50,042 bases of DNA from a virus, in IMG/VR virus record IMGVR_UViG_3300025133_000164, positions 1 through 50,042 of that record; one strand, given 5' to 3'. Under the pieces are notes generated by a model. The model was not told the DNA's origin and did not search any database. It saw nothing but the letters and a program-made list of their open reading frames with translations. Numbering within the stretch: the first letter of the stretch is position 1; each line of letters starts with the position of its first letter. The translations under genes were made by a program, and so were the position numbers. Of this stretch, positions 23,570 through 47,577 are shown in pieces.

Positions 23570-24361
23570 ATGCCTCCGACTTGGAGTCCGTTCTCGGCGA
23601 TCGCTGGTCTGAGTCTCGCCGGTCGGCAGTGTCCGCCCGCTGGCTACTTCGACCTCGTCTTGGCGGTGCGCAGGTTCCCGCCCTACCTCAAGGGGCGCAG
23701 CCTCCAGCACACGGGGGTGTCGAAGTTCTACTTCAGGCACTTCAGGGAGGTCTCTCGCCTCAACCACTACCGGAATCGCCTGCTCACCGCCCCTACGGAC
23801 TGGCCCCCGATGGTGCGCGCTGCCTTTCGGCTCCGTTCACCGCCCACGCCCTACGAATGCGCGTGCTGCATGATCATGGATCCGCCCGGTACGCTCTCCT
23901 ACTGGAGGGGCGCGCACCAAAAGGACCTCCCGCTCGACCTGCGCCGCCGGCATTGGGCCCTCTGGTGGGGCTTCCTGGTAGGCTTTCCGCTACCCTACCT
24001 GGAGCGTCAGCTCGGACTCGACCCCATCCCCACGCTCTCTGCCCAGGTGCGCTGGATGATGACGTCCTCCCTACGCTTTGCAGCGTGGGCGCTGTCTTCC
24101 GACCTCACCCCAGCCGCCGTTTCGCCCTGGGAAGCGAAGGCCATCCTCGGGATCCAGACCGGCACCTCCTTCACAGCCTACGGAAAGACCGGCCCAGATG
24201 GAGGGACCTCCAGATCAGCAGGATGGCACCTGCCAACCCACGCCGCACAACGAGTCCTACGCTCCCCCCTGGTGAGAAGCCAGCTTCTATCTGGGGTTGC
24301 ACTGCATCCAATCCCACGCCCAGTGTATAGACCGGGCCTGGTATTCGGAGGACCAGAGTAA
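23570..24361 (+). CDS. hypothetical protein
   Basis: 263 residues. ATG 23570 directly follows a stop in its frame, so it is the first possible start; a later start (near 23660) is conceivable. Codon third positions are strongly G/C in this frame, while the overlapping 269-codon frame is not. The protein is rich in Arg, Leu, Pro and Trp, with a CACC-type Cys cluster near residue 100 and no recognisable family. It lies alone between the divergent region and a large control region. Confidence 0.5.
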   Translation: MPPTWSPFSAIAGLSLAGRQCPPAGYFDLVLAVRRFPPYLKGRSLQHTGVSKFYFRHFREVSRLNHYRNRLLTAPTDWPPMVRAAFRLRSPPTPYECACCMIMDPPGTLSYWRGAHQKDLPLDLRRRHWALWWGFLVGFPLPYLERQLGLDPIPTLSAQVRWMMTSSLRFAAWALSSDLTPAAVSPWEAKAILGIQTGTSFTAYGKTGPDGGTSRSAGWHLPTHAAQRVLRSPLVRSQLLSGVALHPIPRPVYRPGLVFGGPE

Positions 24362-24484
24362 GAAGCAGGGGAGATAGTAGGACCCCCAAAACGCTCCCCG
24401 CATGAAGGGACATGTCCGGCTTTAAAAAACCGGCCCCCCAAAGGGGGGGGTACCCCCCTCCCGCGCAGGGGCTGGAGGGCTCAC

Positions 24485-24564
24485 TGCGCAGGTGTTCAGG
24501 TGCACGGATGCGCAGGTGAACGGGGTAGCGCCTGAACGGGCGCACCGCTGCGCACGTGTTCACC
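24485..24564. repeat. inverted repeats with GGTGAAC/GTTCACC half-sites
   Basis: TGCGCAGGTGTTC (24485-24497) and TGCGCAGGTGAAC (24509-24521) are direct relatives. GGTGAAC (24515-24521) is matched by GTTCACC (24558-24564). They share the GGTG/CACC core with the dyads at 24597-24700, so the whole 220-base stretch may be a series of binding sites for one protein. Confidence 0.4.
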
Positions 24565-24596
24565 GGGGAAACCCCCCCCGATCCCCCCGGGCTCCA

Positions 24597-24700
24597 GGTG
24601 CGAAAACCGTTACGCACCCCCCCGGCCCTAAGTGCTCGAGATCCTTACGGTTTTCGGTAGTGCGTAGCGGGCTACGCAGGTGCGAACGGGATTACGCACC
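24597..24700. promoter_or_regulatory. two copies of dyad GGTGCGAA-N5-TTACGCACC
   Basis: The first copy is at 24597-24618 and the second at 24679-24700. Both have six-base arms (GGTGCG and CGCACC) with exactly ten bases between, of which the outer AA and TTA are also shared. The copies are 82 bases apart, close to eight helical turns. They lie about 40 and 120 bases upstream of a sigma-54-type promoter, the usual distance range for enhancer-binding activator sites. The activator is unknown. Confidence 0.55.
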
Positions 24701-24740
24701 AACGATCGCCGTAAGTGCCTGAAATCATTAGGGTTTCCGC
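24629..24740 (+). repeat. imperfect 29-bp direct repeat
   Basis: 24629-24657 and 24712-24740 both begin TAAGTGC and align at 22 of 29 positions without gaps. Each copy starts 10-12 bases after one of the GGTGCGAA-N5-TTACGCACC dyads, so the unit dyad plus tail (about 60 bases) is duplicated as a whole. The second copy ends exactly where the sigma-54-type promoter begins. Confidence 0.55.
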
Positions 24741-24756
24741 TGGCACGGGGCTTGCA
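24741..24756 (+). promoter_or_regulatory. sigma-54-type (-24/-12) promoter
   Basis: TGGCACG (24741-24747), four bases, then TTGCA (24752-24756) matches the RpoN consensus TGGCACG-N4-TTGCW at every fixed position, with the GG and GC elements at the right spacing. Transcription would start near 24768 and run into the accessory tract from 24933. No equally good match was seen in the other non-coding parts. Sigma-54 promoters need an enhancer-binding ATPase; the dyads upstream fit that. Presence of the motif is direct; use in vivo is inference. Confidence 0.6.
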
Positions 24757-24838
24757 CTACTTGCCCTCCCCCCTGGCGTCGGTCAGGGGGCGGCCCGCTC
24801 CTTCTCAGTCCCCCATACGTGTGTGTGCTGCTCTCCCT

Positions 24839-24914
24839 GAGAGACAGGCTCCAGGCTCAGTCTGGAGTCTCTCTCTCAGGTGAGAGCCTGAGACAGGAAC
24901 CACGGTGGTTCCTG
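24839..24914 (+). promoter_or_regulatory. structured mRNA leader with two hairpins
   Basis: First hairpin: GAGAGA (24839-24844) and CTCCAG (24849-24854) pair with CTGGAG (24862-24867) and TCTCTC (24868-24873). Second hairpin: CAGGAACC with GGTTCCTG (24894-24914), ending 18 bases before the ATG at 24933. The two lie downstream of the sigma-54-type promoter, in the leader of its transcript. They could protect the mRNA 5' end or regulate translation. Confidence 0.45.
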
Positions 24915-24932
24915 CACTGTAGAGAGAACATC

Positions 24933-25445
24933 ATGGACAACAACAAGTCCAAGAGCAAGTCCAAGAGCAAGTCCAACGGTTCGAAGAACATCGTGACCCG
25001 TGTCCAGTTCAGCGAACACAAGGTGGTCTTCCTGCCCTGCTGGTCGCCCGTCAAGGGGTCGGCCACGGACGAGGATGGCAACAAGTGCCTGCCGGCGTTC
25101 AAGCCGACCGGCTTCGTCGTGGCCCTGGAAGGGCCCGACGGAACGCTGACCATCGACCGCAACTGCGGAAACGGCCCCCGCCACGAGGATGCGCAGGACA
25201 AGAGCCTGTTCCCCTCCGGCCCGCGCTTCTGGTCCGCCGTCGCTCCCGGCTTCGCGTCGGGCACCGCGAAGGTGTCGTGGTTCGACCGCCAGCGCGACGC
25301 GGCACAGGATGCGGCGGAGCGCATCTGGCCGGACCTCTTGAACGTCGCACCGGAGGACGTCTCCATCGCCGACCGTGAGGCGGAAGCGGCCCGACTGGAG
25401 GCCGAATTCCGCGCTGAACTGCGCAAGTCGCTGGGGCTGGACTGA
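24933..25445 (+). CDS. hypothetical protein with Ser-Lys repeat N-terminus
   Basis: 170 residues from ATG 24933, chosen over upstream in-frame codons because it follows AGAGAGAAC and the leader hairpins. Residues 5-14 are five Lys-Ser dipeptides, making the N-terminus strongly basic. The rest is a mixed alpha/beta domain with three Cys and an Ala/Glu-rich C-terminal helix. As first gene after the sigma-54-type promoter it may be strongly made. The basic tail could bind nucleic acid. No family recognised. Confidence 0.6.
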   Translation: MDNNKSKSKSKSKSNGSKNIVTRVQFSEHKVVFLPCWSPVKGSATDEDGNKCLPAFKPTGFVVALEGPDGTLTIDRNCGNGPRHEDAQDKSLFPSGPRFWSAVAPGFASGTAKVSWFDRQRDAAQDAAERIWPDLLNVAPEDVSIADREAEAARLEAEFRAELRKSLGLD

Positions 25446-27514: not shown

Positions 27515-27547
27515 GAGAGAGTAGGGCTGGCTTGGCCCTACTCTTTC
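27515..27547 (+). promoter_or_regulatory. 14-bp hairpin upstream of MoxR-like gene
   Basis: GAGAGAGTAGGGC (27515-27527) pairs with GCCCTACTCTTTC (27535-27547), one or two G-T pairs, loop TGGCTTG. The following TTTCGCC gives a very short T-run, so a weak terminator is possible. The tail CGCCTGTCAACAGG matches that after the hairpin at 25846. Confidence 0.55.
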
Positions 27548-27615
27548 GCCTGTCAACAGGAACGTTGAACGGGTACAGCTGGCGCGGTGCTGGCTGTAAG
27601 AAGGGAGAGAGAAAG

Positions 27616-28749
27616 ATGAGCAAGACCCCCGATGTGGTCAACGCATTCGCACTGGCCGTCCAGGCTGGCGTCGCACCCTACGCCGAAGGTGAGCCCGGCA
27701 CTGCCAAGTCGGCGCTGCACGAGGCCATCGCCCGGCAGCTGGGCTTCCACCTGGAGCCCGTGGTGGCGTCGTTGTTGTTCGATTCGTCGGACGTCAACGG
27801 CATCAACTACGTCACGCCGGACGGTGGCCTGGGCCACGTCATGGCCCCGTTCGTACAGTCCTGCATGGACGCCTCGGCGGAAGGGCTGGTGCCCTGGATG
27901 TTCTTCGACGAACTGCCCACCGCTGCGCAGGCGGTGCGCGCTGGCCTGCTGCGTGTCGTGGTGCAGAAGGACGTCAACGGCATGGCTCTGCCGGAGGAGA
28001 TTCGCTTCTCCGCTGCCGGCAACCCGCTGGAGCAGGGCGAGGGAGGCAGCCGCCTCTCCGCTGCGATGGCGAACCGCTTCTGCCACCTGGACTGGAGCCT
28101 GCCGGCGGAGTGGCGTGTCTCCCAGATGATGGCGGGCTACCCCGACCCGCCCGTCACCCTGGTGCCCGAGGGGTGGGAGGAGTGGCTGGAAGAGGCACGC
28201 CTCCTGTCGGGACAGTTCATCCTGTCTCCGGCGGGGAGCGACCACTTCCAGAAGTGCCCCAGGGAGCGCAAGCTCCAGTCCGGAGCGTGGCCGTCGGGTC
28301 GCTCGTGGGAGAACGCGAACCGCTGCGTCGCAGCGTGCGCCTCCACGGGGCTGCTCGGTTCCATCGTGGAGTCCCTCCTGCTGGAGGGCTGCGTCGGGTC
28401 GGCAGCTGCGCAGCAGTTCCTCTCCTGGCGCAGGGAGTTGGCGCTGCCCGACCCCGAAGACGTGCTGCGCAAGCCTCGCGGCTGGGCTGCCGACCGGGGT
28501 GACCGTGTGCTCGTGACCCTCTTCGGTGTGGTGCGCGCGGTGGCGACATCGAAGACGCAGGACCGCTACGACGCAGCGTTCCAGGCGTGCCTGTTCGCGG
28601 AGCAGCAGGGCTTCCTCGACGTCGCAGCCATGGCCGCCGGCAAGCTGTGCGCGCTCCGCTCCCAGAAGGGAGGGAACGTGCTGGTGGCGAAGCCCAAGAT
28701 GCTGACCCCCTTCGTGCCCTTCCTCCGGCAGGCCGGGTTCATCGGATGA
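27616..28749 (+). CDS. MoxR-type AAA+ ATPase
   Basis: 377 residues. ATG 27616 is chosen for GGGAGAGAGAAAG upstream. Walker A is GEPGTAKS (25-32), Walker B is MFFDEL (Asp98, Glu99), the sensor-1 Asn is in AAGNP (136), and an arginine is in MANRFCHLDW (154), the signature of the AAA_5/MoxR clade to which RavA, NorQ, CbbQ and CobS also belong. Such ATPases act as hexamers that remodel a target through a VWA-domain partner. A VWA gene lies one gene downstream, which strongly supports a functional pair. The C-terminal part (after 220) is helical. Confidence 0.8.
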   Translation: MSKTPDVVNAFALAVQAGVAPYAEGEPGTAKSALHEAIARQLGFHLEPVVASLLFDSSDVNGINYVTPDGGLGHVMAPFVQSCMDASAEGLVPWMFFDELPTAAQAVRAGLLRVVVQKDVNGMALPEEIRFSAAGNPLEQGEGGSRLSAAMANRFCHLDWSLPAEWRVSQMMAGYPDPPVTLVPEGWEEWLEEARLLSGQFILSPAGSDHFQKCPRERKLQSGAWPSGRSWENANRCVAACASTGLLGSIVESLLLEGCVGSAAAQQFLSWRRELALPDPEDVLRKPRGWAADRGDRVLVTLFGVVRAVATSKTQDRYDAAFQACLFAEQQGFLDVAAMAAGKLCALRSQKGGNVLVAKPKMLTPFVPFLRQAGFIG

Positions 28750-29685: not shown

Positions 29686-29723
29686 AGAGGGAAGCAGGTG
29701 GGGTGACCTGCCTGCTTCCTTCT
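29686..29723 (+). promoter_or_regulatory. 13-bp hairpin upstream of VWA gene
   Basis: AGAGGGAAGCAGG (29686-29698) pairs with CCTGCTTCCTTCT (29711-29723) with one G-T pair. The arms close with the same AGAG...TTCT pair as the hairpin at 28827. The ATG of the VWA gene follows 27 bases later, after GGAAGGAGAGG. Confidence 0.55.
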
Positions 29724-29750
29724 GGCCCAACATCGGGAAGGAGAGGAAGA

Positions 29751-31268
29751 ATGTCCTTGCAGATCGATACCACCCAGCTGCGCCCGGCGAAGCCGTGGCC
29801 CACGGAGATGCAGGTCGCACGCATCCGAGCACAGAAGGTCTACCCGTTCTTGTCGGACTGGCTGTTCAGTGTGTCGCTCATCGTGTCGGAGCAGGTCGCG
29901 CTCCCTCGTGGAGAAGGCAAGCCGCCCCAGCCCACGATGGCGTGCGATGCGTACGGTCGGGTGTACGTGCACCCCAGCCTGCTGACGGGCGACGACGCCT
30001 GGGACCGGGACGTCCTGGGTGGTGTCCTGCTCCACGAGATCGGACACCTCGTCCGTGACCACGCCAAGCGTGGAGCGAAGGCAGTGTGGCAAGGAGTGCG
30101 CGTGCACCCCACCGTCTACAACATCGCCGCCGACGGCGAGATGAACACGGGCCTGGAGCGTGACGGTGCGAAGCTGCCGGATTGGGGCGTGTTCCCCGGA
30201 CGGATGGCACCGGACGGAGGGGAGACTCTCCTCTCCGATGCTGTTCCGGGGCTCCTGGCTGAGCAGTACGTCGACCACATCATGAAGAAGCTCCAGCAGC
30301 AGGTGCAGCAGGGTGGGGCGACGGGTGACTCCGACGATCCCAACGCCGTGCCCGTGCCCATGCCGGGGGGGTCGGGTGGCGGCGCTTCCTGCCCGAAGGG
30401 TGAGGGTGCGAGCGGAGGTGAGTGCGGCTCCGGGGGTGGCGGTGAGAAGCAGCCGTGGGAACTGGACGCGCCGGGGCAGGGCTCATCTGATGGTGAGTCA
30501 GACTCATCTGATAGTGAGCCTGGGGGTTCGTCGGAGCAGGGTCGTCAGTCCCTGCGCGACCAGCTGAAGAGCCAGCAGGACCCGACGGGTGGGATGTCCG
30601 AACAGGAGATGGACACCCTGCGCAGGGTGACGGCGGGCAAGGTCCAGCAGTGGGCGAAGGGTCGCGGCCACGGTGCCGGTAGCTGGTCCATGTGGGCTGA
30701 CTCCGTGCTGGAGGAGCCCCCCGTCTCGCCGGAGGAACTGCTGCGCGACGCGCTGAACCAGGCCAGGGAGTGGGCGTCGGGTCGGGGTGACTTCACCTTC
30801 GGACGCATGCCCCACCGGCGCAGGGTGGTGGGCGGTGGTGGCATCGTGCCCCCCGGTGTCGTGCGCCCCGTGCCCCGTGTCATCCTGATGGTAGACACGT
30901 CCGGTTCCATGGGTGGCGACGGGCCGCAGGTGCTGGGCTGGGTCGATGCCTTCTGCCGTGAGTCGGCGACCCCCGTGGAGATCTTCTGCGTGGACTACGA
31001 CGTGAAGAGCACGGGTATGCAGAACGTGTCGGACGTGAGCGATGTCCAGTGGACGGGCGGCGGTGGCACCGACATGCGGGTGGGGTTCCAGTACCTGATG
31101 AAGACGGGGAACATCCCCGATGTCCTCGTGGTGGTGACCGACGGCTACACCCCGTGGCCCGCACGGGAGCCCGGCTTCCGCACGGTCATCGCCCTGACCC
31201 AGGACAGCGGCTCCCACTACAAGCCCCCCTCGTGGGCGGACGTGGTGGAGTGCAAGGAGAAGGTGTGA
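29751..31268 (+). CDS. DUF2201-like metallopeptidase region plus VWA domain
   Basis: 505 residues from ATG 29751. The N-terminal domain has HEIGH (95-99), a zinc-peptidase motif, and NIAADGEMN (about 124-132), typical of the DUF2201 N-terminal family. A low-complexity Gly/Ser/Asp/Gln linker covers about 185-290. The VWA domain (about 375-500) has a complete MIDAS metal site: DTSGS (Asp382, Ser384, Ser386), Thr440 in GGGGTD, Asp464 in VVTDG. DUF2201-type proteins are usually encoded next to a MoxR ATPase, as here (27616). The pair probably recognises and remodels or cleaves a protein target. Whether the peptidase is active is unknown. Confidence 0.8.
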   Translation: MSLQIDTTQLRPAKPWPTEMQVARIRAQKVYPFLSDWLFSVSLIVSEQVALPRGEGKPPQPTMACDAYGRVYVHPSLLTGDDAWDRDVLGGVLLHEIGHLVRDHAKRGAKAVWQGVRVHPTVYNIAADGEMNTGLERDGAKLPDWGVFPGRMAPDGGETLLSDAVPGLLAEQYVDHIMKKLQQQVQQGGATGDSDDPNAVPVPMPGGSGGGASCPKGEGASGGECGSGGGGEKQPWELDAPGQGSSDGESDSSDSEPGGSSEQGRQSLRDQLKSQQDPTGGMSEQEMDTLRRVTAGKVQQWAKGRGHGAGSWSMWADSVLEEPPVSPEELLRDALNQAREWASGRGDFTFGRMPHRRRVVGGGGIVPPGVVRPVPRVILMVDTSGSMGGDGPQVLGWVDAFCRESATPVEIFCVDYDVKSTGMQNVSDVSDVQWTGGGGTDMRVGFQYLMKTGNIPDVLVVVTDGYTPWPAREPGFRTVIALTQDSGSHYKPPSWADVVECKEKV

Positions 31269-35414: not shown

Positions 35415-35525
35415 CGGGGAAGCCTGTTCACCCGCACACCCGTTCAGCTACCGCCACCATGCCCGGTGCGGTACTCTGCTAAGACTCGCCCTGCTTCAAG
35501 GGCTCGACGAGAGGCACTCTCTTCC

Positions 35526-37766
35526 ATGCTTCCCTGGTCGTTCTCGATCTTCAGGGGTGGGTTCACCGATACCCAGCCCCAACAAGTGAACCTGCCTTCA
35601 GCACAGGCGATCCGCAGACTCTTCGAACGACCTCCCCAGAAGCCGAGCAGCTACTACAAGCGCCGGCTCCCGTGCTGGTCACCAGCCCTGTACCCGCAGG
35701 GCAAGACACGCAGGAACGACAACGTCCAGGGGCTCACTGCCCTGGTGCTGGACGTGGACGACGGCAGCGTCGGTCCCAAGGAAGCGGGTCACCTGCTCCA
35801 GGCTCAGAGCCTGAACCATGCGGTCTACTCGACGTGGAACCACAGCCTGTCCCGGCCCAAGTACCGGGTGGTGATCTTCGTCAACAGGGTCATCAAGGCT
35901 CACGAGTTCTCCTCCCTTTGGCAGTACGCCCAGAAGATCCTGGGTCACGTAGGTGACCAGGCGTGCAAGGATCTGGCCCGCCACTACGCCCTGCCGATCC
36001 GACGTCGGCGTGCCGAGGAGTACGTCGGCACCGTCTGGCTGGACGGCCAGGACCTCGACGTGGACAGGATCCTCATCGAGCAGAAGGTTCACGGTCAGCA
36101 GACCAACGCGCAGGGTGGCACCACCAAGGCTGCCAAGCTCACGGAGAAGGAACCTCCGATTGCGCTGACCAAGACGACGCCCATCACCCTGAACTCAGGG
36201 AAGACCATCACCCCCGAGGTGCTGATCAAGGCGGGCGAGGCCAAGTACAAGTGCTTCTGCCCGTGGGAGGATGGAGCCAGCGCAGGGTCTGCCTTCGTCC
36301 GCGTCATGGCAGACGGGCGCTGCTTCCTCCGCTGCACCTCCACGGGACACAGCCATCCGGGTCGGCAGTGGTGGGTCAGCAACACGGCGAAGAAGGGTGC
36401 GGGTACACGATCCGTCTCCGAACGCCGCAACCTGCTGACCGAAGTGCCCCCGGACATCGCCCGGTACGCGGAAGCGTCCCTCGCCTACAACCTCCAGCAG
36501 CAGGCGTTCTTCCGTCGGCAGCGGGGGAAGTGGTTGATCGGCTCACCGCTCCGGAAGAACGACCTCACTGATCACCTTGTTGGACTTCTGCCCGAGGGGT
36601 GCGGGCAGAAGCATGCTATTGCGCTGGTAGACCACGTTCTGAGCAGGCAGACCTACGGTTACGATGTAGTCTCAGAAGGACTACCGATCGTATCACGCGA
36701 TGGTCAGCGGATGATGAACCTGTACGCCGAGCCGAAGCTGAAGCCGAAGCCGCACCCCTTCCCTACCCTGAAGGCGATGCTGAAGGTGCTCGCTGCCAGC
36801 GACCCTGGCGCTGAGAAGTGGCTCGTCCACTGGTCAGCAGCCCTGGTCCAGGCACCCGAGCGCCGAGGCATGACCGCTGTCCTGTGCATGTCCCCTCAGC
36901 AGGGGATCGGCAAGAGCATGTACGGTCGGATCCTCTCCCACATCATCGGGGAAGGGAACACCGCCGTCGTCTCCAACCGCGCACTCCGGGACAACTTCAA
37001 CGCCAGCTACGTCACTGCGCTCTTCATCCTGGCCGACGAGGTCGGCATCCATCCTGCGGCGAAGGACGTCGTAGCTGAGATCAAGACCTACATCACGGAT
37101 GAAGAGGTCCACCTTGCTGCCCCCTACGCTGCGAGGACGAAGACGAAGAACCGCATGACGTGGTGGATGACGAGCAACGAACTTCGCCCCCTGCTCATCG
37201 AGCAGGACGACAGGCGGATGACGGTGCTCGCTTCCGGCACGGCGTCGGTCGACTACAAGCTGAGCTTGCGGGATGCCTTCGACTCCAAGACGGGGACGTT
37301 CACGGAAGACTTCCAGGCAGAGGTGTGCGGGTTCGCCCACGCCCTCCGCAAGCTGAAGGTGGACTGGTCTCTCATCGCCAAGCCTTACGAGACGGGAGCC
37401 AAGCGCCTCCTCTTGAAGGCCAGCCTTGGTAGCCTCACTGCCTACAAGAAGCTGCTGGAGCAGATCGGCATCGCCGGAACCCTGTCCTCCTACCCGCCCA
37501 ACCACGACGCCAAGCAGCTGATGCAGCTTGCAGCCCGTGGGACGGCCACCTGTCAGACAGCCTACTCGTCCTACCGGACGTGGTGTCAGCGGCACGGTCG
37601 ACGTGACGAGCGTCCCGAAGCCGAGTTCCAGCTCGTCATGCTCTCGATCCAGGGTGTCACGGTGAAGACCCTGCATCGAGGAGGGGAGTACATCGATGTC
37701 TACCGAGGACTACCTCAACGTCGGGGGAACGACCGCAAGGGCCAAGTGGTTAGCCTACCTGGATAG
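35526..37766 (+). CDS. primase-helicase (AEP-like primase domain plus SF3 helicase)
   Basis: 746 residues from ATG 35526 (GAGAGG upstream); 20 more codons are open upstream. The N-terminal region has LVLDVDDG (Asp76, Asp78), then YSTWNHSL and KYRVVIFVN, matching the metal and His motifs of archaeo-eukaryotic-type phage primases. A Cys/His stretch (KCFCPWEDG...CFLRCTSTGHSH, about 235-275) may be a zinc-binding site. The helicase part has Walker A PQQGIGKSM (Lys463), Walker B FILADE (Asp504, Glu505) and WWMTSN, as in SF3/D5-type helicases. It would unwind DNA and make primers at the fork, next to the family A polymerase at 44890. Confidence 0.75.
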   Translation: MLPWSFSIFRGGFTDTQPQQVNLPSAQAIRRLFERPPQKPSSYYKRRLPCWSPALYPQGKTRRNDNVQGLTALVLDVDDGSVGPKEAGHLLQAQSLNHAVYSTWNHSLSRPKYRVVIFVNRVIKAHEFSSLWQYAQKILGHVGDQACKDLARHYALPIRRRRAEEYVGTVWLDGQDLDVDRILIEQKVHGQQTNAQGGTTKAAKLTEKEPPIALTKTTPITLNSGKTITPEVLIKAGEAKYKCFCPWEDGASAGSAFVRVMADGRCFLRCTSTGHSHPGRQWWVSNTAKKGAGTRSVSERRNLLTEVPPDIARYAEASLAYNLQQQAFFRRQRGKWLIGSPLRKNDLTDHLVGLLPEGCGQKHAIALVDHVLSRQTYGYDVVSEGLPIVSRDGQRMMNLYAEPKLKPKPHPFPTLKAMLKVLAASDPGAEKWLVHWSAALVQAPERRGMTAVLCMSPQQGIGKSMYGRILSHIIGEGNTAVVSNRALRDNFNASYVTALFILADEVGIHPAAKDVVAEIKTYITDEEVHLAAPYAARTKTKNRMTWWMTSNELRPLLIEQDDRRMTVLASGTASVDYKLSLRDAFDSKTGTFTEDFQAEVCGFAHALRKLKVDWSLIAKPYETGAKRLLLKASLGSLTAYKKLLEQIGIAGTLSSYPPNHDAKQLMQLAARGTATCQTAYSSYRTWCQRHGRRDERPEAEFQLVMLSIQGVTVKTLHRGGEYIDVYRGLPQRRGNDRKGQVVSLPG

Positions 37767-38334
37767 GCGGCCCATCCTTCGCGGAGACATGCCCCAGCGC
37801 CGAGCCGCAACCCGTGAGCTGGTGAGCAGCTGGGAGCGTAGTTTCTGGTGGCAGGCCCCTCTCCGGATCGTGCTCACCACACCGGAGAAGATCTCCGAAA
37901 GCGCGCTCATGCAGCTGGCCAACGAAGGCCAACCCGCCGACGTCAACGACGACTGCCTGTGTGGTGGCCGGCTCTACGAGGTTTGGGAGACCCTCCCCGA
38001 GGAGGGAGTTCTCTGCCCGTGGGAGTTCTGCACCACCTGCAACACCCACCACTACTACTTCGGAACTGGAGACCAAGTTGCCTCTCTTCTCGTGGCAGAA
38101 GACGATCCCGAACCACTGGCTGGAGGTCCCGGGAGTCTACAAGAACAAGCGCAACGACGGTGGGCGAGTCCCGCACAACGCGCATGGGATCTTGGGGCTG
38201 CCACCTGTGGTCCCAGCCAGTGGTGGCCTGAGGACGTTCGACAAGCTCGTTACATCCGCCTGCTTCCCCTCGTGGATGAAAAGCCTCCCGACGGAGTACC
38301 AACGCCGAACTACGGCTGGCGCACTGAGTCGTGA
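37696..38334 (+). CDS. hypothetical protein with Cys-rich motif, overlapping helicase gene
   Basis: 212 residues from ATG 37696 (GAGGGGAG upstream), starting inside the end of the primase gene. Residues 85-120 carry CLCGG and LCPWEFCTTC, a likely zinc-binding site. After about residue 127 the frame overlaps the SNF2 helicase frame for 257 bases and loses the G/C third-position bias, so the C-terminal 85 residues may not be a conserved part. Either a true long overlap, or a frameshift that joins the zinc domain to the helicase. Confidence 0.5.
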   Translation: MSTEDYLNVGGTTARAKWLAYLDRRPILRGDMPQRRAATRELVSSWERSFWWQAPLRIVLTTPEKISESALMQLANEGQPADVNDDCLCGGRLYEVWETLPEEGVLCPWEFCTTCNTHHYYFGTGDQVASLLVAEDDPEPLAGGPGSLQEQAQRRWASPAQRAWDLGAATCGPSQWWPEDVRQARYIRLLPLVDEKPPDGVPTPNYGWRTES

Positions 38335-39679
38335 AGGCTTCCACGCCTGGGCTCCTCCGGGTGCAGGCAAGACCCTGATGGGCTTGATCTGGCTCGCAGC
38401 TGCGAGGCAGGCTCCGAAGCTGGTCATCACCCGAGCGCATGCCCGGTGGAACTGGAAGGAGGAGGTGCGCAAGTACACCCGCTTCCGGCCCGTCATGCTC
38501 ACGGGGAAGACACCGCCCCCCGACTTCAAGGTCGACCCCCGGTGCATCTACATCACCAGCTTCTCGACGATCATCGACTGGCGCGAGACTCTGCTTCAGA
38601 GCTTCAAGGGCGGCTGGCTCTGCATCGATGAGATCCACTGGTGCAAGAACCGGAAGCGGGTCAAGCCCGTCGTCCAGCCCGATGGCTCCACCAAGTGGCA
38701 GCCCCTGGGCAACCAGGCAGCAGCGATGCACCAGCTGTGCGGCGTCACGGCCCGAAGGTTCGGCCTGACGGCGACGCCCGTACCGAACAGGCTCTCCGAC
38801 CTGTGGGCGCAGCTGGACCTCGCAGAGCCTTGGCAGTGGGGCAACTTCCACGGCTTCGGCGTCCGCTACTGCGGTGCGTGGCAGGACACCTACGGCTGGA
38901 AGTACGACGGGATCAGCAACAAGCGCGAGTTGAAGCAACGGCTGAACCACTGCCGCCGAGTCACTCCGCAGTCCGACCTCGCCCGTATGCTCCCCCCCTT
39001 CCGCCGGCAGCTGATCCGCTTGCCGCACTCCGAGCAGGACAACCCCGCCCGGATGAAGGAGTACATGAAGAAGATGCTCCGAGGCGGAAGTGCCTGGGAG
39101 GGGCTGCTTGCCGAGGCTGCTACCCGGAAGCGTACCTACGTCACCCGCAAGGTGGTGGAGGAAGCCAAGGCAGGGATGAAGATCGTAGTCTTCACCGGAC
39201 GACGGAAGGACTGCGAGTCCCTGGCCAAGGCCATCCGGAGGAAGCTGCCGGACCAGATCCCTATGTGGTGGGCGCACGGTGGCACCAGCGGCGAGGAGCG
39301 GCACCGCATCCGGGACGAGTACATGGCCCACCAGGGAGCCTGTGTCCTCGTCGGCACCGGCAACGCCTGGGGTGAGAGCATCAACCTCCAGGACACCGAC
39401 CTCGCCCTGATGGTCATGCTGCCCTGGGAGCCCGAGAAGCTCCGGCAGTGGGAGGGTCGCTTCCCCCGCCTGGGTCAACAGCGTCCGGTCGTGGTCAGCT
39501 ACATCATCTGCGAGGGCACCGCCGACGAGCGGATGTCCGAGACCATGCTGGAGAAGCTCCCCATCGTCGGGCTCGTTGCCGACGACGAGGAAGCCCAGAA
39601 GCTGGAGGAGACTCTGGCCGACACCAAGGAGGGGGACTCGCTGCTTCAGCAGCTGATCTCCAGGGGGCAACGGAAGTGA
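38078..39679 (+). CDS. SNF2/DEAD-like helicase
   Basis: 533 residues if started at TTG 38078, preceded by CTGGAG at good distance; third-position G/C bias begins at about this point. ATG 37961 lies in the same frame upstream without such bias, and ATG 38276 is a later alternative. Motif I is PPGAGKT (Lys98), motif II is IDEIH (Asp184, Glu185), motif III is LTATP, and motif VI is EGRFPRLGQ near residue 475, the order seen in superfamily 2 SNF2-type enzymes. Acts on DNA in replication, recombination or packaging start. Confidence 0.75.
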   Translation: MPLFSWQKTIPNHWLEVPGVYKNKRNDGGRVPHNAHGILGLPPVVPASGGLRTFDKLVTSACFPSWMKSLPTEYQRRTTAGALSREGFHAWAPPGAGKTLMGLIWLAAARQAPKLVITRAHARWNWKEEVRKYTRFRPVMLTGKTPPPDFKVDPRCIYITSFSTIIDWRETLLQSFKGGWLCIDEIHWCKNRKRVKPVVQPDGSTKWQPLGNQAAAMHQLCGVTARRFGLTATPVPNRLSDLWAQLDLAEPWQWGNFHGFGVRYCGAWQDTYGWKYDGISNKRELKQRLNHCRRVTPQSDLARMLPPFRRQLIRLPHSEQDNPARMKEYMKKMLRGGSAWEGLLAEAATRKRTYVTRKVVEEAKAGMKIVVFTGRRKDCESLAKAIRRKLPDQIPMWWAHGGTSGEERHRIRDEYMAHQGACVLVGTGNAWGESINLQDTDLALMVMLPWEPEKLRQWEGRFPRLGQQRPVVVSYIICEGTADERMSETMLEKLPIVGLVADDEEAQKLEETLADTKEGDSLLQQLISRGQRK

Positions 39680-40077: not shown

Positions 40078-40432
40078 CACCGTCCACGGGAAAGAGTTCG
40101 GCACCCGCTTCCGTAAGCGGGACGGCCCGCTGAAGGTCACCTACTACAAGATGCCTTCGGGGATCATCGCCGCCAGGGCCCACAAGAGCTGGACTCTGCC
40201 TCGTGCCTGGCACGCCAGCATCGCCCGAGTAGGAAACAGCCATCGGCAGGTGGCAGACTTCACCTCCAAGGAAGAGGCCGTCGAGTGGATCGAGATGAAC
40301 CTGGGGTTCATGGAACTGAACGGCGACTTCGACGCCTCTCCCTGGGAGAACCAGTACGCCGACACGTCGTCCTTCACCGCAGCCGGGCGAGCCATGCTGA
40401 AGGCTGCCTACAACCGAGCCAAGAATGCCTGA
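40070..40432 (+). CDS. hypothetical protein
   Basis: 120 residues from ATG 40070, overlapping the previous gene by eight bases. A basic N-terminus, then a strand-strand-helix unit (RVGNSHRQVADFTSKEEAVEWIE) seen in several small proteins of this genome, then a helical end. Not recognised. Confidence 0.5.
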   Translation: MGDTVHGKEFGTRFRKRDGPLKVTYYKMPSGIIAARAHKSWTLPRAWHASIARVGNSHRQVADFTSKEEAVEWIEMNLGFMELNGDFDASPWENQYADTSSFTAAGRAMLKAAYNRAKNA

Positions 40433-41264
40433 GCTTCTTTTCTCCGGACCCTCCCCCCGAGGGTCCCACCGCATCGGACAGGCTGCCTTCTGCCTGAGGC
40501 TGCACGCCTTCAGCGTGGCTGGCATGGTCGACCGGAGCGGAGCGATGCCCCTCATCCGAGGGTCGCTCCTGCACATGGCTGCCGCCCACCACTACCGGCG
40601 CATGCAGGCAGTGCAGGAAGGCGAGGATCCGGAGCGGTGGTACACCCCGAAGGCTGCGCTGTACGCGCTCGCCAAGCAGGAGTTGGAAGCCGGCGGCCCA
40701 GCGATGTGGAAGGACCTGATCCCTCTCGTCTGGAATGCCTGGGAGGCGTACGAGAAGTACTACCCCTACGACCACGAAGAGTGGGAGATCCTCCAGGTGG
40801 AGGAGTACTTGCAGGCCAACGTCGGCAAGGGCAAGCACCTCTACACGCAGCGTCCCGACCTCGTGGTCCGTGACCGTAGGACCGGCAAGGTCTACATCGT
40901 CGACCACAAGACAGCCTGGAGGCTGGACCACAGCACACTGACCCAGCACCTGCTGGGCATCCAGTTCTTGGGCTACCAGCTGTTCGGCAAGGCCAAGTAC
41001 AAGCGAGCCTTCGGCGGCATCCTGGTCAACAGGATCAAGGTCAAGGCTCCCGTCCAGTTCAGCCGCACGCTGCTGGAGCGTTCACCCCACGCCATCCGTT
41101 CCTTCCCTACGTTCATCGACTTCTGGGAAGAGCAGATCGCCCGCTTCACCAAGACGGCTGAGTCTCCCTGGGACTGGCCGCCCACCTTCGACGAGCGTTG
41201 TTGCGTCTCCAAGTACGGAGCCTGCCCGATGTTCGAAAGCTGTCGTCATGGCCCAAGCAAGTAG
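40425..41264 (+). CDS. Cas4/RecB-family PD-(D/E)XK nuclease
   Basis: 279 residues from ATG 40425. The nuclease core shows PDLVVRD (Asp145) and VYIVDHKTA (Asp160, Lys162), the metal ligands and catalytic Lys of the PD-(D/E)XK fold; QFLGYQLFG supplies the later motif Gln-x3-Tyr. The C-terminus has four Cys (CCVSKYGACPMFESC), as in Fe-S cluster members such as Cas4 and AddB. In phages such nucleases work with annealing ATPases and ssDNA-binding proteins in recombination; both types are encoded nearby. Confidence 0.75.
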   Translation: MPELLFSGPSPRGSHRIGQAAFCLRLHAFSVAGMVDRSGAMPLIRGSLLHMAAAHHYRRMQAVQEGEDPERWYTPKAALYALAKQELEAGGPAMWKDLIPLVWNAWEAYEKYYPYDHEEWEILQVEEYLQANVGKGKHLYTQRPDLVVRDRRTGKVYIVDHKTAWRLDHSTLTQHLLGIQFLGYQLFGKAKYKRAFGGILVNRIKVKAPVQFSRTLLERSPHAIRSFPTFIDFWEEQIARFTKTAESPWDWPPTFDERCCVSKYGACPMFESCRHGPSK

Positions 41265-42335: not shown

Positions 42336-42878
42336 GTGAACATCGCAGCTTCGCCCGGCACTCTTGCCGAGCGCATCGCGTCCATGAAGCGGGACGAGGC
42401 ACGGAGTGCCGTCCGTTCGTGTACGCACATGGCAGAGGTCAAGGAAGTCAGCCGGGACGACACCCGGAAGACCATCCGAGACATCGCCTACCACCGGCTC
42501 CTCCAGCTGGAGGTCCTCGACCTGACCGGCGACGAGGAGGTCGTGAAGGCCCCGAAGAAGGCCAAGAAGGTCAAGGCTCCCAAGCCCAAGAAGGCCCTGC
42601 CGGATGTGCCCGAGGGGCACAAGTGGTGCCCGAAGTGCCTGGTGTTCCACCCCCTGGCCGAGTTCGGCACGCGGAAGATGAAGCGGACCCGCAAGGACGG
42701 GGAAGTGATCGTCACCGAGCGCCCCCAGAGCTACTGCACCCGGGCTCGCAACGGCCACGCCAAGGCGCTGCGCCAGAAGCGTGCAGCCAAGAAGCGGGCA
42801 GCCGAGGCGGAGATCTCCGAGGCTACCGTCGAGGACTTCACCGCAGCGCTCAAGGCGCAGCTGGCAGGTGAAGAGTGA
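42336..42878 (+). CDS. zinc-finger protein, possible nuclease-related
   Basis: 180 residues from GTG 42336 with CAGGAGAG upstream. A Lys/Ala/Pro-rich linker (VKAPKKAKKVKAPKPKKALP, about 69-88) leads to WCPKCLVFHPLAEFG and then SYCTRARNGH. The spacing is that of the treble-clef or zinc-ribbon head of HNH/endonuclease-VII-type phage proteins, but the expected fourth Cys is absent and His may replace it. No catalytic HNH motif is visible. Coupled to the ATPase that follows (GTGA). Confidence 0.5.
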   Translation: MNIAASPGTLAERIASMKRDEARSAVRSCTHMAEVKEVSRDDTRKTIRDIAYHRLLQLEVLDLTGDEEVVKAPKKAKKVKAPKPKKALPDVPEGHKWCPKCLVFHPLAEFGTRKMKRTRKDGEVIVTERPQSYCTRARNGHAKALRQKRAAKKRAAEAEISEATVEDFTAALKAQLAGEE

Positions 42879-43783
42879 AGCGGGGTGAGACCGGCATCCT
42901 CCTCGCCCTGTACGCCCCCTCCAAGTCAGGCAAGACCTTGGCCACCCTGTGCGCCGCCTTCCACGGCAAGTGGGTAGCGGAGAAGGGAGCCCTGCTGCCG
43001 GCGAACGAGTTCGGGATTCCGATCCCGGACGCTGTTCGTGCTCCCGAACTGCCTGACGTGGCGAAGTACGTGAGCACCCTGGTGAAGCAGAAGACCGTCA
43101 TCCCTGCGCTCGTCATCGACGACATGAGCCTGATCGTCCAGCGCACGCTGAGCCGCCTGGAGAACGAGGGTGTCGGCGTCGCCATGTGGGGTCGGATCCG
43201 ACAGTGGGTCATGTCCATCGCCTACGACGCCAAGGAACTGACGGAGCGTGGAACCCACGTGATCTTCAACTTCCACGAGCAGCCCCCGAGGACCTCGTCC
43301 GGCAAGTACATCCGGGGTGGACCCCAGATGCCGGGGCAGCTGCCCGAGCAGTTCAGCGCCGAGTGCTACGTCGTCTGCCGTGCAGTCTTCGACCCGACCG
43401 CCGCCCCCTGGAAGTACGTCCTCCACACCGGCCCGTCAGGTACACACATCCACGGTGACCGCATGGGCGTCTTCCCGGACGTAGGTCCGATGAACCTGCG
43501 AGAGGGCCTGATCCAGGCTGGCTACGACATCCCCCGCCCCAAGGGCATGGAGTGGATGGACAGCGTCGTCGAGAAGATGAGCGAGAAGCTCCTGGCCGAC
43601 GACAACCTGGAGAACTGGAAGCAGGTGCTGAAGGCTCCAGCCGTGAAGCTGGCGCAGAAGCACGGCTCCGGTCCCGTCCGGTGGGCGGTGCAGGATACGG
43701 TCCACAGGGCGGTGATCAAGCACCACCTCGCGGAGGGTGCCCTGATGAGCCTCTTCGAAGACGGGGGCGAAGATGACTGGTAG
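42875..43783 (+). CDS. Sak4/RecA-like ATPase
   Basis: 302 residues from GTG 42875, overlapping the previous stop. Walker A APSKSGKT (14-21) at the very N-terminus and Walker B ALVIDD (Asp82, Asp83) give a compact RecA-like core such as in phage Sak4 single-strand annealing ATPases. Later strands (HVIFNFHEQPP) fit motif positions of that fold. It stands between a zinc protein and the ssDNA-binding-like gene, with a Cas4-like nuclease upstream, a recombination set. Confidence 0.7.
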   Translation: MKRGETGILLALYAPSKSGKTLATLCAAFHGKWVAEKGALLPANEFGIPIPDAVRAPELPDVAKYVSTLVKQKTVIPALVIDDMSLIVQRTLSRLENEGVGVAMWGRIRQWVMSIAYDAKELTERGTHVIFNFHEQPPRTSSGKYIRGGPQMPGQLPEQFSAECYVVCRAVFDPTAAPWKYVLHTGPSGTHIHGDRMGVFPDVGPMNLREGLIQAGYDIPRPKGMEWMDSVVEKMSEKLLADDNLENWKQVLKAPAVKLAQKHGSGPVRWAVQDTVHRAVIKHHLAEGALMSLFEDGGEDDW

Positions 43784-44600: not shown

Positions 44601-44906
44601 ATGAACGAGGAAGTCGAAGCTGTGTTCACCCAACTGGCGCTGATGCAGGCTGGTGGGGAGCGGCTCGTGCTCAACGAAGAAGACTTCGCCACGTACACCA
44701 AGTACCTGGAGAGCCAGTGCCGGGTGTCGAGCGCGACGACGATCGCGCTTGGTTGTGACAGCAGCGCTGTTGTGTCACCTACATCCGTGATGCAAGCCAA
44801 GATCAGCGCTTGGTACCAGAGGCCGACCACCTCCTTCCGGGGCGAGCGAGTCTACTCCCGTTCCGAACTCACCATGTGGACGCAGGCGTATGCAACCAGG
44901 AAGTGA
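44601..44906 (+). CDS. hypothetical protein upstream of DNA polymerase
   Basis: 101 residues from ATG 44601 (GAGGTGAC upstream). A helical N-terminus and a Ser/Thr/Val-rich middle. It overlaps the polymerase gene by 17 bases. Function unknown. Confidence 0.5.
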   Translation: MNEEVEAVFTQLALMQAGGERLVLNEEDFATYTKYLESQCRVSSATTIALGCDSSAVVSPTSVMQAKISAWYQRPTTSFRGERVYSRSELTMWTQAYATRK

Positions 44907-47577
44907 CTGCCAAGACTGTGCCTTGGGCCAGTACCACAAGCGGAAGGAGACCTTCTGCCCGGTGTTGGGGGAGGCGCACGCCAACGACAAGTACCTGATC
45001 ATCGGCCTCTTTCCTGGCTCACACGAAGTACAGGAAGGCAGGCCCTTCGTCGGTCCTTCGGGGATCGAACTGATGCAGGCGCTGGAGGCTACCGGCATTT
45101 CTCGTGACGAGTGCCACATCGAGCACGTGATCTCGTGCCAGCCCCCCGAGAACAACCTGGAGAAGTTCAGGTACCAGCTGAAGAAGAAGACCAAGGCCAG
45201 GAAGAAGAAGGATCCGGGGTGGGTAGCCCCACTGGACCCTCACCGCGCGTGCCAAGGGCACATCCACCAGCTGGACTACTCCAAGTACAAGGGCATCATC
45301 TGCCTGGGCAAGGAAGCGATGCAGCTCTTCCGGAAGCAGTCCTCCATCATGACGATGCGTGGGGCGTGCGAGGAAGTGCAGCAGGGATCGGGCGTCAGGG
45401 GCACCATCCGGCCCGTCAAGGTCGGGTACACCCTCCACCCTGCCTTCGTGTCTCGCTCACCGGAGTGGCGTGACGTCTTCCAGTCCGACATCGCCAAGGC
45501 GTTCCGATACTTCAGGGGAGACCTCCGCTGGCAGTGGCCGGACGTCCAGATTGCGGTCCAGGACCCGAAGCGCTGGCGCGATACGCCGCACGGACCCTAC
45601 GGAGCGGCCCACGTCAAGTTCACAGACATCAGCGGCGACCTGGGTCCCCTCGTAGTCGAGGCTTTGATCCAAGAACTCGTCGATGACGGCGAGCCGGTGG
45701 TCTACGACCTTGAAACCGACTCCAAGTACCCGATGGTCGCCAACATCCGGTGTGTCGGCTTCGGCAACCGCAAGCGGGCTGTCGTCTTCCCGATCAACGA
45801 CCTCCGGAACCACCCCATCTGCCCCGACTGGCTCGGACCTCGCGTCGGCAAGCTGCTTTCGGACCCCCCCTTCAAGCTCATCGGGCACAACGCCGGGCAG
45901 TACGACCGGGCAGTGATGGAAGCGCACGGTGTGACGCCCAGGTTGGACGGCGACACCATCCTCATGCACCTGCTCGCCGACAACGAGCAGAGCCACAGCC
46001 TGGGCTTCTTGGGCAGCTACTACACCGACAACATCGAGGCGTGGAAGGCGGATCACACCGCTACGGAGGCCAAGGACAACGTCGAGCTTTGGGTCTACAA
46101 CGCCAAGGACTGCGTAGTCAACGCCAGGATCATTCCACCGGTCATCAAGCAGGTTCGCCGCCGCAAGCAGGGCCACCTCCTGAAGCGGGAGCACATGCTC
46201 CAGGACGCGGGTGCTGGAATGACGAGGCTGGGCCTGGCTCTCGACGCCGGGAGGCTGGAGAAGATCCGCCAAGCAGTCGACACCAAGCGGCACACCAGCG
46301 CGACGGTCACCAGCCGCATCGCAGCTGGAGTGAACCCCCTGTCCTCACAGCAGCTGTCCAGGCTGCTCTTCGACACCTGGAAGCTGCACCCCGTAGGCTA
46401 CTCGGAGAAGACCGGAGAGCCTTCCACGGACGACGCGACCCTCCTTCGGATGCTGACGACCTACGACCTGACCTCAGACCAGCGTGAGTTCATCACAGCT
46501 GTCAGGTTCCTGCGTCGCTGCTCCAAGGTGAAGGGCACCTACCTCACTCCCTTCTCCAACCTCTCAGGGCTGTACGAAGACAAGCGGCTCCACCCGTCCT
46601 ACAACAGGCTGCCCGCTACAGGGCGCTACTCGTCCTCCAACCCCAACGCCCAGACGGTGCCCATGTACCTGCCCGGGATCGGATGGGTGGATGCGGACGA
46701 GGTGTACCACCCGCTGGCGCTGCGTTCCTGCTTCATCCCCCAGAGAGGGAGCGTCTTCGTCGGCGCAGACATGGACCAGCTGGAGCTTCGGGTCATCGCT
46801 GAAGAGGCGGAAGCCTCCCGGCTACTGCGGTCCTTCGAAGACGGCAGCGACCCGCACAACGACACCATGGAGATGATCTACGGCACCGGGATCTGGAGAA
46901 TGGACGGCGCTCCCGTAGACGCCGACGGCAACACCGACCGCTACGGGAAGGGCGGGGGCATCTTCAAGCAGACCCGAGGCATCACCAAGACGGTGCGCTA
47001 CGCCTGGCAGTACGCCGCGAAGGCCCCCAAGATTCACGAGCAGATCATCGGAGTCGAAGACCCGGTTTCCGGTAAGTTCCCGTATGGCCACTACACGATT
47101 CCAGATGTCCGCTCGATCTGCAAGGGCCTGGACAAGGCTGACCCCGAGATCCCACGCTGGTGGGAGCGCATCGTCGCAGGCTACCGGAGGGACGGCTTCG
47201 TAGCTGACACCCTCTGGGGCCGTCGTCGGGATTTCAAGGGCGACGAGAAGATCAACGAACTCGTCAACCACCCGATCCAGAGCAAAGGCGCGAGCATCGT
47301 CCACGAGGCGATGATCGAGCTTCTCTACGGAGAGCAGCCCTGGTTCACGACGGAGAAGGCAAGCGGCAACGGCAGGCGGGAGACGATTCCCTTCGACTTC
47401 AAGAAGAAGTACGGGCTCGTCAACCAGTGCCACGACTCGCTGGTGTTCGAAGTGCCTGAAGCCGACGCTGAACGCGTAGCAGAACTGATGACGGACGTCA
47501 TGACCCGCAAGGTGAAGGGCGGATCCGTCGTGTACTCGGCTGAGGCCGACATCGGAGAACGCTGGAGCGACGTCTAA
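44890..47577 (+). CDS. uracil-DNA-glycosylase-like domain fused to family A DNA polymerase
   Basis: 895 residues from ATG 44890. The first 200 residues match Fe-S uracil-DNA glycosylases: CQDC (Cys7, Cys10), GLFPGSHE (39-46), GRPFVG, CQPPENN and TLHPAF. In family 4 enzymes the first motif is GE.PG; here Leu40 replaces the Glu, nearer to family 5, so activity is uncertain. A DnaQ-like exonuclease follows (YDLET, Asp273, Glu275; IGHNAGQYD; YNAKDCVVN). The polymerase has motif A ADMDQLELR (Asp627), motif B with Arg696, Lys700, Tyr704, Tyr708, and motif C CHDSLVFE (Asp849, Ser850). Tyr704 sits where T7 polymerase has Tyr526; Ser850 replaces the usual Glu. Chief replicative polymerase. Confidence 0.88.
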   Translation: MQPGSDCQDCALGQYHKRKETFCPVLGEAHANDKYLIIGLFPGSHEVQEGRPFVGPSGIELMQALEATGISRDECHIEHVISCQPPENNLEKFRYQLKKKTKARKKKDPGWVAPLDPHRACQGHIHQLDYSKYKGIICLGKEAMQLFRKQSSIMTMRGACEEVQQGSGVRGTIRPVKVGYTLHPAFVSRSPEWRDVFQSDIAKAFRYFRGDLRWQWPDVQIAVQDPKRWRDTPHGPYGAAHVKFTDISGDLGPLVVEALIQELVDDGEPVVYDLETDSKYPMVANIRCVGFGNRKRAVVFPINDLRNHPICPDWLGPRVGKLLSDPPFKLIGHNAGQYDRAVMEAHGVTPRLDGDTILMHLLADNEQSHSLGFLGSYYTDNIEAWKADHTATEAKDNVELWVYNAKDCVVNARIIPPVIKQVRRRKQGHLLKREHMLQDAGAGMTRLGLALDAGRLEKIRQAVDTKRHTSATVTSRIAAGVNPLSSQQLSRLLFDTWKLHPVGYSEKTGEPSTDDATLLRMLTTYDLTSDQREFITAVRFLRRCSKVKGTYLTPFSNLSGLYEDKRLHPSYNRLPATGRYSSSNPNAQTVPMYLPGIGWVDADEVYHPLALRSCFIPQRGSVFVGADMDQLELRVIAEEAEASRLLRSFEDGSDPHNDTMEMIYGTGIWRMDGAPVDADGNTDRYGKGGGIFKQTRGITKTVRYAWQYAAKAPKIHEQIIGVEDPVSGKFPYGHYTIPDVRSICKGLDKADPEIPRWWERIVAGYRRDGFVADTLWGRRRDFKGDEKINELVNHPIQSKGASIVHEAMIELLYGEQPWFTTEKASGNGRRETIPFDFKKKYGLVNQCHDSLVFEVPEADAERVAELMTDVMTRKVKGGSVVYSAEADIGERWSDV

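Follow-up and report, generated by a model that had tools for sequence, protein, structure and literature searches.

Bacterial sigma-54 promoters need an activator that reads a signal, and a viral early arm placed behind such a promoter would tie the infection programme to the state of the host. The closest described systems are bacterial promoters with enhancer-binding-protein sites, for example those of the NtrC or DctD type; the dyad sequence reported below was matched to no described regulon. No description of a phage promoter of this kind was found in the open-access literature searched. We analyzed a stretch of viral DNA of 50,042 nt (IMG/VR record IMGVR_UViG_3300025133_000164), hereafter called the window, which carries a candidate for such a promoter.

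The putative -24/-12 element, TGGCACGGGGCTTGCA, occupies positions 24741-24756 of the + strand, in a gap of 571 nt. It is a perfect TGGCACG-N4-TTGCA and contains the invariant GG and GC of TGGCAC-N5-TTGC. The original prediction of a sigma-54 site at this position was borne out, and the site proved to be the sole zero-mismatch sigma-54 match of the entire window. The chance expectation for the perfect full consensus is 3.4e-5 on the + strand of the gap, and that for a perfect consensus on both strands of the whole window is 0.0066. A search for a sigma-70-like promoter at 24300-24960 found none.

Upstream of this element lie three putative UAS dyads of the general 18-bp form TGCGWA-N6-TWCGCA: TGCGAAAACCGTTACGCA at 24599-24616, within an extended palindrome at 24597-24618, TGCGTAGCGGGCTACGCA at 24661-24678, and TGCGAACGGGATTACGCA at 24681-24698, within an extended palindrome at 24679-24700. 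They are the only perfect copies of this form in the 50-kb window, all inside 100 bp, and they start at -60, -80 and -142 relative to TGGCAC, in the enhancer-like range of 60-200 bp upstream. The two extended palindromes had already been recognized as GGTGCGAA-N5-TTACGCACC dyads 82 apart, and both stand; the count of two does not, the dyad at 24661-24678 having been missed.

Between the dyads and the promoter, a GAAATCATTAGG box is found at 24721-24732 (+ strand); it turns up in other viral contigs as well, close to dyads or to sigma-54 sites. Its role as a specific sigma-54 companion was rejected, since the 18-mer form in viral contigs mostly occurs without sigma-54 sites. The exact 18-mer GAAATCATTAGG(CTTTTT) is present in 18 viral contigs of diverse GC, some of them duplicates (contigs concerned: the window, L119, L163, L165, L166 and L257-L271). 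Downstream of the promoter, the predicted 5' leader (24767-24932, + strand), whose start is deduced from the -12 element, is strongly structured, with a minimum free energy of -90.9 kcal/mol (z = -5.3) and a long predicted hairpin at about 24829-24892. An Rfam search of this leader returned no family; judging from its predicted fold, it may act as an attenuator or bind a protein. Elsewhere in the gap, at 24485-24565, repeats of the form GTGTTCAGGTG / GGTGAACGGG were observed, and a distant relative, G006, has similar repeats (CCTGTTCACCTGAACGCCTGTTCACC) at the equivalent intergenic site (about 43350-43450, reverse).

The left part of the window holds leftward structural genes and the right part a rightward arm, in which small genes of no assigned function are followed by a MoxR-VWA module, primase, helicase, exonuclease, a Sak4-like protein and DNA polymerase. 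The first gene downstream of the promoter (24933-25445, + strand, as are all those that follow) encodes 170 amino acids with no family match. Further along are a MoxR-like AAA+ ATPase (PHROG 1297, 27532-28749) with no sigma-54 activator domain match, a VWA/metallopeptidase-like protein (DUF2201, 29703-31268), a primase/helicase-like protein (35466-37766), a SNF2-type helicase (37961-39679), a PD-(D/E)XK exonuclease (40425-41264), a Sak4-like annealing ATPase (42875-43783) and a UDG-exonuclease-DNA polymerase A fusion (44890-47577). The promoter had been proposed to control an accessory set including the MoxR-VWA module; the module is indeed present, but the tract is not accessory only, as it comprises the whole rightward early/replication arm, primase and DNA polymerase included. 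The AAA+ domain of bacterial enhancer-binding proteins (bEBP; PF00158) was found in 0 of 12 virus records, the window's own included, which may be incomplete. On the other side of the gap, the + strand ORF at 23570-24361 weakly resembles (25-34%) ORFs that, in four relatives, lie on the opposite relative strand, which suggests an inversion or a spurious frame.

Conservation was first sought among relatives of this virus. The closest record is identical across the shared 32.5 kb and, for that reason, gives no independent evidence of conservation; in a phage collection, neither the region nor the terminase nor the box recovered a close relative. Absence from related phages had been set beforehand as a refuting criterion, and the scan found no linked dyads and sigma-54 site in ten more distant, moderately related contigs (capsid protein 50-74% identical), not all of which extend over the matching region. 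The module thus does not go back to the ancestor of the sampled group and is, on the sequences compared, a lineage-specific, host-matched feature. In the divergent region of one relative (G007), a sigma-70-like TTGACA-N16-TATAGT was recognized by eye, as was a similar element in that of G006.

Viral contigs were then scanned for the dyad alone and for two dyads in tandem, the sigma-54 motif being left out of both scans. Clusters were defined as at least two dyads, with one mismatch allowed, and a sigma-54 core was sought in the adjacent 200 bp. Such a core, with at most one mismatch, was found beside 5 of 11 dyad clusters against 0.35 expected from dinucleotide shuffles, the cluster counts being small and the dyad pattern having been defined on this window. 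The shuffle maximum was three clusters with a sigma-54 core, and the observed five were reached in 0 of 400 shuffles. Perfect cores stood beside two of the clusters (0.005 expected), and the remaining six had no core with at most one mismatch nearby. One of the five cores, that of G017, is 13 bp from the dyad and less convincing. When records were read whole, there was essentially one dyad cluster per genome, and any linked sigma-54 core lay to a single side of the cluster and pointed away from the dyads. A combined scan for dyad and sigma-54 site added three further phages (L119-L121), which are not independent evidence because the sigma-54 motif was used to find them. In two phages, one from the dyad-only scan (G012) and one from the combined scan (G024), the first gene past the promoter encodes a sigma-70-family factor; these two have proteins in common. 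The dyad phages range from 43 to 66% GC, and most have no protein in common with the window; distant replication proteins are shared by G015 and a few others. A whole-phage tblastx comparison was swamped by composition.

Other arrangements were also noticed among viral contigs. At about 6930-7110 of L166, a different repeated dyad (CGCAA-N3-TTGCG) is followed by a perfect sigma-54 site with a GAAATCATTAGG box, and this dyad is possibly a second phage enhancer type. A phage of 36% GC (L163/L165) lacks TGCGWA dyads and carries a pair of perfect sigma-54 sites separated by 222 bp.

The dyad-sigma-54 unit was also found in bacteria. Among 25 bacterial genomes carrying the exact dyad, two had the dyad with a sigma-54 site, both ahead of orthologues of one gene of about 60 amino acids (gene A), for which no convincing family match was found. 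In one class, 7 of 71 genomes carry the unit, mostly ahead of gene A (two other target promoters, in G060 and G070, precede a different short gene), and all seven genomes encode RpoN; a reversed-pattern control gave 0 matches in the same 71 genomes. This class is Myxococcota-like, uncultured and known here from assembled genomes alone. Its phylum is called Myxococcota by inference, because two of the 379 genomes in a wider sampling of that phylum are recorded as Myxococcales (G026, G044); that sampling yielded one match outside the class, again ahead of a gene-A-like ORF. Homologues of gene A were detected in 56 of 67 class genomes. Thirty loci were fetched and a script located the gene in 27, all of which had at least one dyad (at most one mismatch) upstream, and 26 a sigma-54 core (at most one mismatch), with dyads most commonly starting at about -69 together with -94 or -103 from TGGCAC. 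The dyad-sigma-54 unit as a whole was found before 26 of the 27 readable gene A orthologues.

Outside this phylum, a sample of 398 Pseudomonadota gave two matches, one inside a different, longer palindrome and neither with gene A. In L255, from Pseudomonadota, a perfect sigma-54 site accompanied by TGCAAAATGCGAA...TTCGCATTCTGCA precedes a gene whose product may resemble a heme NO-binding protein. The exact 22-bp dyad was set aside as a probe of all genome contigs, its 49 matches, against roughly 30 expected by hand estimate, being mostly chance. A few conserved dyad sites were found in Myxococcaceae, where the only sigma-54-like core nearby, a TGGCACG-N4-TTGAA on the other strand, is non-canonical. 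In several of these loci (L061, L070, L097 and others) a double dyad is conserved ahead of a FAD-dependent oxidoreductase-like gene, and there the TGGCACG-N4-TTGAA on the other strand is conserved as well.

No bEBP was found beside gene A, and in one genome (G096) with 17 PF00158 matches, of which 12 are strong, the strong loci had no dyads nearby and none of the PF00158 proteins could be assigned to the dyads. From the shared operator, the host of the phage would be placed in this bacterial class with moderate confidence at best. Bacterial target loci are of 64-72% GC and several dyad phages of 43-51%; these low-GC phages suggest that the activator may be more widespread than the class. The tetranucleotide signature fitted two class loci best (r about 0.7) and, being noisy across loci, was not relied on.

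The dyads could instead be operators of a repressor or another non-bEBP regulator, of phage or host, acting by repression or steric effect, perhaps with the sigma-54 site in use all the same. Palindromic operators at regulatory junctions are typical of phage repressors, and the six clusters without a nearby sigma-54 core fit this explanation; we nevertheless judge it unlikely, as the bacterial dyads keep conserved positions upstream of the sigma-54 site that are typical of enhancers and no DNA-binding repressor was recognized among the window proteins scanned, which cover part of the ORFs. Less probable still is that the dyads belong to a replication origin or another structural element at the transcriptional divergence: the cluster does lie close to where leftward structural genes give way to rightward replication genes, with more repeats at about 24485-24565, but these dyads are also found in bacterial chromosomes, ahead of one conserved gene that has a sigma-54 promoter. 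Coincidence of sigma-54 match and dyads, with a degenerate promoter elsewhere in the gap driving the operon, is equally implausible, for although many motifs could catch a reader's eye and the gap is rich in GC and in symmetric sequence, the expectation in the gap is minute and the arrangement recurs independently in unrelated phages and in bacteria.

Taken together, a sigma-54 promoter with enhancer dyads is well supported by the dyads that accompany sigma-54 sites both in unrelated phages and in an RpoN-bearing bacterial class. The dyads most likely serve as sites for a sigma-54 activator of the host, the phage having copied a host promoter architecture for its early/replication arm. We hold it probable, from sequence comparison, that this is an enhancer-dependent sigma-54 promoter through which a host bEBP and RpoN drive the rightward arm, with an operator copied from a Myxococcota-like sigma-54 regulon. 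The host bEBP would bind the three TGCGWA-N6-TWCGCA dyads, the DNA would loop between these and the promoter, and ATP hydrolysis would allow the host RpoN-RNA polymerase to open at 24741-24756; transcription would start near 24767 and enter the rightward early/replication arm, whose first gene begins at 24933. The dyad itself would be the operator of a sigma-54 regulon of the uncultured Myxococcota-like class, a host architecture taken over by the phage. The broader proposal is that the operator of a single host sigma-54 activator was acquired repeatedly by unrelated phages and serves to gate their early or regulatory genes, a phage sigma factor in two or more cases; infection would then proceed only with the host sensor on. 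This proposal has in our view an even chance of being right. For viruses that metagenomes alone have revealed, an operator common to unrelated phages and a bacterial class yields a host prediction that can be tested; the gene A promoters constitute a conserved, uncharacterised bacterial regulon to identify.

Compared with known systems, the locus resembles bacterial sigma-54 promoters with enhancer-binding-protein sites in its -24/-12 element, its tandem palindromes 60-140 bp upstream and RpoN, encoded by all seven dyad-sigma-54 genomes of the presumed host class; it differs in lying in a phage, where it would drive the early/replication arm. The presumed early promoters of G006 and G007, which would use host sigma-70, share its position before the rightward arm, whereas they consist of a sigma-70-like element recognized by eye and have neither dyads nor a sigma-54 site there. 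The gene A sigma-54 regulon has the same dyad, the same order of dyads, promoter and gene, and similar offsets, but its promoters usually have two dyads, whereas the phage has three and a GAAATCATTAGG box.
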